A program made the position numbers and the translations under genes. Positions 5,890-8,182 of a stretch of 32,882 bases of DNA are shown here, piece by piece. The stretch covers positions 1-32,882 of the forward strand of contig QOQC01000014.1 of assembly GCA_003331365.1 (NCBI GenBank), read 5' to 3'. The notes below the pieces were generated by a model. That model ran no database searches, was not told the DNA's origin, and saw only the letters and a program-made list of their open reading frames with translations. How positions within the stretch are numbered: position 1 is the stretch's first letter; every line of letters begins with the position of its first letter. This DNA comes from Flavobacteriales bacterium (GTDB lineage Bacteria; Bacteroidota; Bacteroidia; Flavobacteriales_D; Crocinitomicaceae).

Positions 5890-6681
5890 TTACCCAGTTT
5901 CAACTACAGCGCGTCTGATGTCATCTGGTAAAATTCCAGTAGGTCTTTTTTCTATCGCCTTTCGAATCTTATTTACAGAGCGTATGTTATAGAGATATAT
6001 TTTCCAATCTTGATTCATATAATGCTGAATATCATCCCTTGACAATGTTTCGTATCGGACAAATAATCCCGCCATCTGAGGATACAAAGAAAAATAATTA
6101 TCTATAGCTGATTTGGAATCAGAATCCAAATATGTAGGATAATCATTTACAAAATGTGCAATCCATGATGCATTGACTGTAATTACTCCGATTTGACATT
6201 CTAAATCAGAAATGACACTATTCAGTGAATTCTTGAATTCCATTGGATCCACGACAACACCGATGGATTGAGGATAGGCTTTTATATCTATAAATAATGT
6301 TTTTGAACTATCGAAAAGATCAAGAATATCACGTAGTTTGCAGAGCTTTTCCTTTTTCATCGTTTGATAATTCAACTCCTCCAAAAATTCTGTGTTATAT
6401 TCTGGTATAGAACCTTCCATACCACAAGAAGATAAATCAATATCATGATAGAGCCACAGCTCTCCATCAAGATCCATTTGAACATCAACCTCAACACCAT
6501 CAACGCCTGAATACTGCATGGCCAATTCAATGGATTCAAATGTATTGTCATGATAAATCGACATTAAATGATTCAAACCCATTCCGCCATGACCTATAAT
6601 TTGGATATCAGCATAATTTTCTTGTTTCTGACAAGAAGTAATGAATAAAATAAAAACAAATAAAAAGATGTTATATCTCAT
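5890..6681 (-). CDS. Glycerophosphodiester phosphodiesterase-like lipoprotein
   Basis: Lipobox FITSCQ; GDPD motifs IIGHGGMG...NTFESIELAMQYSGVDGVEVDVQMDLDGELWLYHD. Start at MRYNIF (6681), which overlaps the upstream gene's stop by 11 nt (ATGAGATATAA). Confidence 0.78.
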   Translation of the reverse strand: MRYNIFLFVFILFITSCQKQENYADIQIIGHGGMGLNHLMSIYHDNTFESIELAMQYSGVDGVEVDVQMDLDGELWLYHDIDLSSCGMEGSIPEYNTEFLEELNYQTMKKEKLCKLRDILDLFDSSKTLFIDIKAYPQSIGVVVDPMEFKNSLNSVISDLECQIGVITVNASWIAHFVNDYPTYLDSDSKSAIDNYFSLYPQMAGLFVRYETLSRDDIQHYMNQDWKIYLYNIRSVNKIRKAIEKRPTGILPDDIRRAVVETG

Positions 6682-7189
6682 ATGACAAACCAATGGAAAA
6701 ATGAAAATTCGGATAAATCAAGCGAACTTCTCTACTAATTCCAGAAAAAGATTCACTCATCAAACCAATAAATGTTTTTTGAAAAAACTTAGTCTTTCCC
6801 CCTATCCTAAATACATATCCTGCACAAAGCTCGTGATGTGATGTAAATGAAGGGCGATTGTAAAAAGAAAAATAATATCCTCCCCCGACACCGAGAACAA
6901 CAAGCTGATTCTCACCAAAACATTTATATAGAGGATTATAAATCAAATCTGTACCAAATCGCAGAAACAAATTCGATTGAATAAATGAATGAATGACTCC
7001 AAATCCAATAGACGGATTTAAAGAAAAAGATTTTACAGGTTTTATGTAGGTAAAAGTTGAATAAAAATCATTTCGTTCTGCACTTGCTGTAATCGCTAGA
7101 GCATCTTTTGAAGTGTTAAGACTTTCGTGTAAATTTTGAGAAAAAGCACATCCATAAGATATAAGGAAAAAAAAGAATATTAAGCGCAT
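6671..7189 (-). CDS. Small outer-membrane beta-barrel-like protein, unknown function
   Basis: 172 aa, signal peptide MRLIFFFFLISYGCAFSQ, alternating hydrophobic/polar strands, aromatic/Gly-rich, ending FHFSIGLSYEI. Confidence 0.65.
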   Translation of the reverse strand: MRLIFFFFLISYGCAFSQNLHESLNTSKDALAITASAERNDFYSTFTYIKPVKSFSLNPSIGFGVIHSFIQSNLFLRFGTDLIYNPLYKCFGENQLVVLGVGGGYYFSFYNRPSFTSHHELCAGYVFRIGGKTKFFQKTFIGLMSESFSGISREVRLIYPNFHFSIGLSYEI

Positions 7190-7195
7190 TGAATC

Positions 7196-7333
7196 CTAAA
7201 ACTTTGGACATTTCTTACATGCATAACCCTTTTTTTTGAACTTTTTACAACACTTTTTCTTCTTTTTATCCATATCACAACTTACTATTGGTAAAATGGA
7301 ATCAAATACACACTCAGAAGGGTTCTTTTTCAT
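7196..7333 (-). CDS. Cys/Lys-rich 45-aa miniprotein, not in the supplied ORF track
   Basis: Hand translation: MKKNPSECVFDSILPIVSCDMDKKKKKCCKKFKKKGYACKKCPKF*. Stop lies 6 nt upstream of the next gene's ATG (7189); TACCTTTG -7 element 20 nt upstream of the ATG. Confidence 0.6.
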   Translation of the reverse strand: MKKNPSECVFDSILPIVSCDMDKKKKKCCKKFKKKGYACKKCPKF

Positions 7334-7336
7334 CTA

Positions 7337-7353
7337 TTTAGAATAATTCTAAA
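7337..7353. promoter_or_regulatory. Palindromic Fur/PerR-family-like operator
   Basis: TTTAGAATAATTCTAAA, a perfect 8-1-8 palindrome containing TTAnAATnATTnTAA (the Per/Fur 7-1-7 box pattern), between the -7 element and the start codon of the 7196-7333 ORF. Confidence 0.5.
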
Positions 7354-7361
7354 CAAAGGTA
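7354..7361 (-). promoter_or_regulatory. -7 element of the minus-strand operon 7333-5890
   Basis: Plus CAAAGGTA = minus TACCTTTG (TAnnTTTG); no clear -33 TTG seen. Confidence 0.45.
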
Positions 7362-7432: not shown

Positions 7433-8182
7433 ATGAATCAAATATTATTTTTACTTATTCTTTTGAGCCCATTATGCGCGATTAATCAAGAGCAATTTAC
7501 CGTTTACTTTCCAACTGACAAATCATACATGGTTCATTCAAGTAAAATGAAACTTAAAACAATGATTGACTCTGAAAGAATAAAGAGCATTGTGAAAATC
7601 GAGGGTTACACGGATTCTACAGCTTCAAATGAATACAATAAAGAATTGGCAGAGAAAAGAATATTAGATATCAAATATTATTTGATTCAAAATAATATTC
7701 AATTAGACGAAAACTTCAGTTCTAAAGCCATCGGAGAAGATTTTAATCAAGAAAATGAAATTTCAAAAAACAGAAAAGTCATTATCACTTACATTTCAAA
7801 TATCAACAAAAAGATAACGGATCTAAAAAAAGGAGAAAAACTGGCTTTGAATCATTTGAATTTTCAACCAGGTACAGACGTATTTAGAGACATTGCTTTT
7901 CCCGTTCTTGAAGATTTGTTACTTACACTGAAAAAACGAGAAGATATACATATTAAAATTCATGGACATATCTGCTGTGCCTTAGATGATTGGCAGGATT
8001 TATCTACACAAAGAGCTATGAGGGTACTTGATTATCTGACTAAAAATGGTATTGACCCCCAAAGGCTGAGTCATCAAGGACATGGAAGCTCCAAACCTAT
8101 ACATAAACTACCAGAAGAAAATGAAGATCAGAGGAAAAACAACAGGAGAGTAGAAATCGAAATTGTTTCGATCAAAGAATAA
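7433..8182 (+). CDS. Exported protein with two tandem OmpA-like peptidoglycan-binding domains
   Basis: Half 1: VKIEGYTDSTASNEYNKELAEKRILDIKYYL...ISKNRKVIITY. Half 2: IKIHGHICCALDDWQDLSTQRAMRVLDYLTKNGIDPQRLSHQGHGSSKPI...QRKNNRRVEIEI. Confidence 0.82.
   Translation: MNQILFLLILLSPLCAINQEQFTVYFPTDKSYMVHSSKMKLKTMIDSERIKSIVKIEGYTDSTASNEYNKELAEKRILDIKYYLIQNNIQLDENFSSKAIGEDFNQENEISKNRKVIITYISNINKKITDLKKGEKLALNHLNFQPGTDVFRDIAFPVLEDLLLTLKKREDIHIKIHGHICCALDDWQDLSTQRAMRVLDYLTKNGIDPQRLSHQGHGSSKPIHKLPEENEDQRKNNRRVEIEIVSIKE

Follow-up and report, generated by a model that had tools for sequence, protein, structure and literature searches.

A predicted Fur operator at the promoter of a cysteine-rich miniprotein conserved across Bacteroidia

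Described Fur systems and the palindrome at 7337-7353

Fur-controlled genes have been described in R. anatipestifer, a member of the Flavobacteriales, in which the Fur box ATTTAGAATTATTCTAAAT was predicted from the promoters of genes identified as Fur-regulated by RNA-seq of a fur mutant. Purified R. anatipestifer Fur bound promoter fragments with putative boxes in EMSA (PMC5609570). The box is quoted here as given in the results section and discussion of that paper, the abstract of which reports another string (GATAATGATAATCATTATC). In Bacillus subtilis, Fur controls the small basic proteins FbpA, FbpB and FbpC, which have been proposed to assist the sRNA FsrA as RNA chaperones (PMC7430163). 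In E. coli, the reductase FhuF is derepressed at low iron through Fur, and the C-C-x10-C-x2-C motif in its tail provides the ligands of a [2Fe-2S] cluster (PMC8068687).

We analysed a window of 32,882 nucleotides, corresponding to contig C6 of a 1.66 Mb MAG that is 68% complete. The relevant features are as follows.

7337..7353, no strand assigned: predicted operator (Fur box) TTTAGAATAATTCTAAA, a perfect 8-1-8 palindrome, assigned by conservation and by its match to the published R. anatipestifer Fur box
7354..7361, minus strand: Bacteroidota -7 promoter element TACCTTTG (TAnnTTTG), adjoining the operator, assigned by sequence and by conservation across loci
7196..7333, minus strand: miniprotein of 45 aa, MKKNPSECVFDSILPIVSCDMDKKKKKCCKKFKKKGYACKKCPKF, with the core CC-x9-C-x2-CP
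6671..7189, minus strand: outer-membrane 8-stranded beta-barrel protein of 172 aa, whose gene often comes second in the operon (AlphaFold2 pLDDT 84, eight strands)
5890..6681, minus strand: GDPD-like lipoprotein with an ITSC lipobox, its gene overlapping that of the barrel at the latter's end (PF03009, E=1.1e-9)

The palindrome, noted in the first-pass annotation as a possible operator, is indeed perfect. It contains TTAGAATAATTCTAA and is directly adjoined by TACCTTTG (7361-7354, minus strand). Along the minus strand, the order of elements is TACCTTTG-TTTAGAATTATTCTAAA-TAG-ATG, which places the palindrome directly after the -7 element and 3 nt ahead of the miniprotein start codon (7333). The transcription start of the minus-strand promoter is expected to fall inside the palindrome.

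The 17-base core of the R. anatipestifer box is identical to 7337-7353 apart from the free centre base. As in the genome analysed here, an Fe(III)-dicitrate (FecA-type) receptor is among the genes preceded by the R. anatipestifer box, which lies within 100 nt of start codons. In contrast, the box at 7337-7353 adjoins a TAnnTTTG element and ends 3 nt from a start codon, and the published list of R. anatipestifer Fur targets does not include the miniprotein (PMC5609570).

By sequence alone the palindrome is not rare, as the window contains 4 perfect 8-1-8 palindromes and 0.87 are expected under a first-order Markov model. The case for it has to be made by comparison. The 7337-7353 site is the only one in the window that matches the box pattern with up to 3 mismatches.

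Conservation and further copies of the box

The box was searched for in the 90 nt upstream of the CC motif of the miniprotein, allowing up to 2 mismatches. It was found at 25 of the 26 loci of the genus and at 33 of 58 loci outside the genus. The same 90-nt search at the 26 genus loci yielded 0 matches to the reversed pattern and 0.0015 matches per locus to shuffled patterns. Conservation of the box upstream of the miniprotein is far beyond chance, so that the phylogenetic footprinting suggested in the first-pass annotation came out in favour of the site. At 60 miniprotein loci in which the box has a consistent position, TA..TTTG is directly followed by the box and then by TAA/TAG. Both half-sites are strongly kept (mostly 1.4-2 bits), the centre base is free (0.26) and the flanking DNA drifts (about 0.3); the box columns were selected at up to 3 mismatches, which inflates their conservation, and no selection was applied to the promoter (TA..TTTG) and TAA columns. 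No clear -33 element was seen in the 60-locus footprint.

At a single genus locus (L108) the miniprotein is kept, whereas the box is missing, as are the barrel and GDPD genes. In some other families and orders, the miniprotein is accompanied by a degenerate box or by none that is clear. For instance, at several loci from other families of the order (L129, L131, L137, L186, L188-L191 and L198-L205) the Cys core is kept, mostly with no recognisable Fur box nearby.

Pattern searches revealed further copies of the box in the same genome, the next-best preceding a FecA-type TonB receptor gene by 62 nt (TTTAGAATGATTCTAAA, L003), nqrA by 91 nt (L005) and the gene for ActA of alternative complex III by 47 nt (L006). 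Two additional copies with 2 mismatches are found within or at the end of genes. Across 61 genomes of the genus, the average is about 2.7 boxes (up to 1 mismatch) per genome, versus about 0.1 for the reversed-pattern control, and 56 genomes have the box. Neighbours of the genus sites listed were named by eye and from sequence motifs, the family-library check being confined to the receptor of the own genome; they include ActA with a divergent SPOR gene (17 sites), FecA-type receptors (16), a NarL-type response regulator (15), the miniprotein (7), nqrA (6), DUF4856 (2) and ClpC (2). Most of these neighbours are iron-uptake or respiratory genes, and the FecA-type receptors place the same box at iron-uptake genes both in the own genome and in the genus. 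Of the neighbours of the sites listed, none was recognised as a peroxide or zinc gene. Degenerate copies of the box were found in the genus near feoA and sufA-like genes.

In the case of the NarL-type response regulator (L037, L045, L047, L052, L058, L142, L156), whose gene is usually divergent from a Sua5-like gene, a Fur box precedes the likely start codon by a few nt, and the promoter is laid out like that of the miniprotein. Boxes in the divergent ActA/SPOR region (L006, L042, L050, L056, L161) and before nqrA (L005, L055, L157) suggest that Fur may control respiratory complexes. In R. anatipestifer, expression of a gene named cytochrome c oxidoreductase quinone-binding subunit is lower at low iron (PMC5609570). 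A second intergenic palindrome, ATACC-N8-GGTAT, is found in the genus at FecA-type receptors, feoA and sufA-like genes, beside Fur boxes that are either full or degenerate (L243, positions 1501-1518 of G000:C44; L241, L246, L247, L251, L254, L259, L266, L267). Another regulator of iron or iron-sulfur type may bind there; an Rrf2 protein was not found in the own genome.

The regulator and other readings of the box

The own genome carries one Fur-family gene (L001), close to purA; because the MAG is 68% complete, a second one could be missed. The single Fur gene of Flavobacterium psychrophilum is also located upstream of purA (PMC9331221). In the genus, a Fur-family match was obtained in 56 of 61 genomes, nearly always to one strong gene, to which some relatives add a second, weak Fur-like gene. 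The solved structures nearest to L001 are V. cholerae and P. aeruginosa Fur, and Fur models score above PerR models. L001 reads VIEF where V. cholerae Fur has VIEF; in an alignment to Fur, the Glu of this motif falls where PerR carries Asp (Asp104). Judged on these features, L001 is Fur-like rather than PerR-like.

The palindrome at 7337-7353 is very probably a Fur (iron) operator. Conservation, iron-gene co-targets, the identity with a published Fur box and the single Fur-type regulator together strongly support the Fur-family operator originally placed on the miniprotein promoter. Of the three signals then envisaged, iron is favoured by the iron and respiratory neighbours of the box and by the Fur-like regulator, and zinc and peroxide find no support, genes of neither kind having been recognised among the neighbours listed. 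When iron is sufficient, metal-loaded Fur would bind 7337-7353 and cover the minus-strand start region, blocking transcription of the miniprotein and of the downstream barrel and GDPD genes. As iron falls, Fur would leave the box and the operon would be expressed. Repression of the promoter by Fur at this site is likely; we infer binding in the Flavobacteriales host, repression and the identity of the metal from sequence data.

It is very unlikely that the box is the operator of a PerR- or Zur-type regulator, with the operon responding to peroxide or zinc. Although TTAnAATnATTnTAA also fits the PerR box, and some relatives possess the second Fur-like gene mentioned above, L001, the sole Fur gene found, has its closest solved counterparts among Fur proteins and carries Glu at the position of PerR Asp104, and peroxide or zinc genes were not recognised among the box sites listed. 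Moreover, R. anatipestifer Fur is reported to bind fragments with such boxes (PMC5609570).

The box lies in a divergent region, 80 nt from the start of an OmpA-like gene (7433-8182), and could mainly serve that gene. We consider this very unlikely: across relatives the box tracks the miniprotein rather than the OmpA-like gene, which was seen as a neighbour in the close relative L041 only.

A palindrome a few nt from a start codon might also act in RNA, as a leader hairpin near the ribosome-binding region. This reading, which we rejected as extremely unlikely, is at odds with a predicted fold no better than that of shuffled sequences (z=-0.05), with the presence of the same box, on either strand, ahead of TonB receptor and ActA genes at distances of tens of nt or more, and with the fact that most box variants alter one half alone. 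Finally, AT-rich DNA might have produced the palindrome by chance, as the abundance of such palindromes in the window (4 versus 0.87 expected) might hint. This reading is refuted by conservation to the point of being negligible, since the box occurs at 25/26 genus loci, against 0 for the reversed control and 0.0015 per locus for shuffles, and keeps one place relative to promoter and start codon across loci.

The miniprotein and its partner genes

The Fur operator itself is of a known kind; what it is predicted to control is an uncharacterised family. Members of the miniprotein family share the core K-K-x-C-C-K-K-Y-K...C-x2-C-P, in which 8-10 residues separate the Cys pairs (CC-x8-10-C-x2-C). 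FbpA, FbpB and FbpC resemble the miniprotein in being small, basic and, as predicted for the latter, under Fur control; we know of no Cys core in them. Profile searches detected the miniprotein in 25 of 61 genomes of the genus and in 69 of 199 genomes of the order. The family is found across Bacteroidia, and a scan of genome contigs with the miniprotein gave two matches in other phyla. The miniprotein is translated, as most differences in the core are at third codon positions (3094, versus 552 and 487 at the other two). Neither a consistent Pfam match nor a confident NCBIfam family was obtained for the miniproteins, and profile searches of the PDB and a search of plasmids gave no match. AlphaFold predicted no reliable fold (pLDDT 66, pTM 0.27), and the core motif string was found in no paper of the collection searched.

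A link to siderophore reductases emerged from NCBIfam, in which 33/33 miniproteins, and 0/33 shuffled sequences, match TIGR03950 (siderophore ferric iron reductase). In every member for which coordinates were shown, the match covers the last 20-30 positions of the model; scores are weak for each protein and far below cut-offs (best E=5e-4). The miniproteins gave no match to PF11575. Alignment of FhuF tails to the miniprotein with hhalign gave P=0.0087 (shuffled control 0.8) with a probability of 4.6%, and is suggestive only. The C-terminus of E. coli FhuF consists of CCQRYRLPDVQQCGDC plus three residues, and its terminal stretch CCQRYRLPDVQQCGDCTLK contains the cluster ligands. The miniprotein resembles the tail of FhuF-type reductases (E. 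coli FhuF, TIGR03950, TIGR03951), CC-x-R/K-Y-R/K...C-x2-C(P), and FhuF is also under low-iron control through Fur, which for the miniprotein is a prediction. In contrast to FhuF, a protein of 262 aa with a globular domain and the spacing CC-x10-C-x2-C, the miniprotein has about 45 aa, is Lys-rich, has a spacing of 8-10 and has no globular domain. With 45 aa it falls well short of the globular reductase domain and the 220-260 aa or so of FhuF-type proteins. Because individual scores are weak, the similarity is best described as a shared motif rather than as proven descent.

By analogy with the FhuF-type tail, CC-xn-C-x2-C of the miniprotein plausibly holds an iron-sulfur cluster or some other metal. 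That the miniprotein helps to recover iron, as a small carrier of electrons or as a reductase, is a guess, and one we would sooner bet against.

Many loci carry the barrel and GDPD genes behind the miniprotein. The AlphaFold2 model of the barrel matches the fold of NspA, OmpA and OmpW. The GDPD-like lipoprotein keeps the catalytic His, E-x-D and HD; the arginine of the usual HR is replaced by A/G in 26/26 relatives examined, and its substrate or activity may therefore differ from the usual one. At L095, L102, L112, L128, L130 and L136, the box and the miniprotein are kept and GDPD was not detected. The envelope module formerly proposed for the three genes is only partly right. The absence of barrel and GDPD genes from several boxed loci makes the miniprotein the constant partner of the box.

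Taken as a whole, the findings might tentatively be read as follows: a stand-alone protein of ~45 residues that has the unusual vicinal-cysteine [2Fe-2S] motif of FhuF type, is conserved throughout Bacteroidia and is produced at low iron under Fur control would serve as a minimal iron-sulfur carrier of electrons or as a reductase of ferric siderophores, accompanied in some lineages by an outer-membrane barrel and a GDPD-like lipoprotein; we regard this as possible, if doubtful. The miniprotein is small enough for direct synthesis and testing. If the proposal is true, a Fur-controlled miniprotein resembling the FhuF tail could explain the release of siderophore iron or the re-routing of electrons at low iron in some Bacteroidota.
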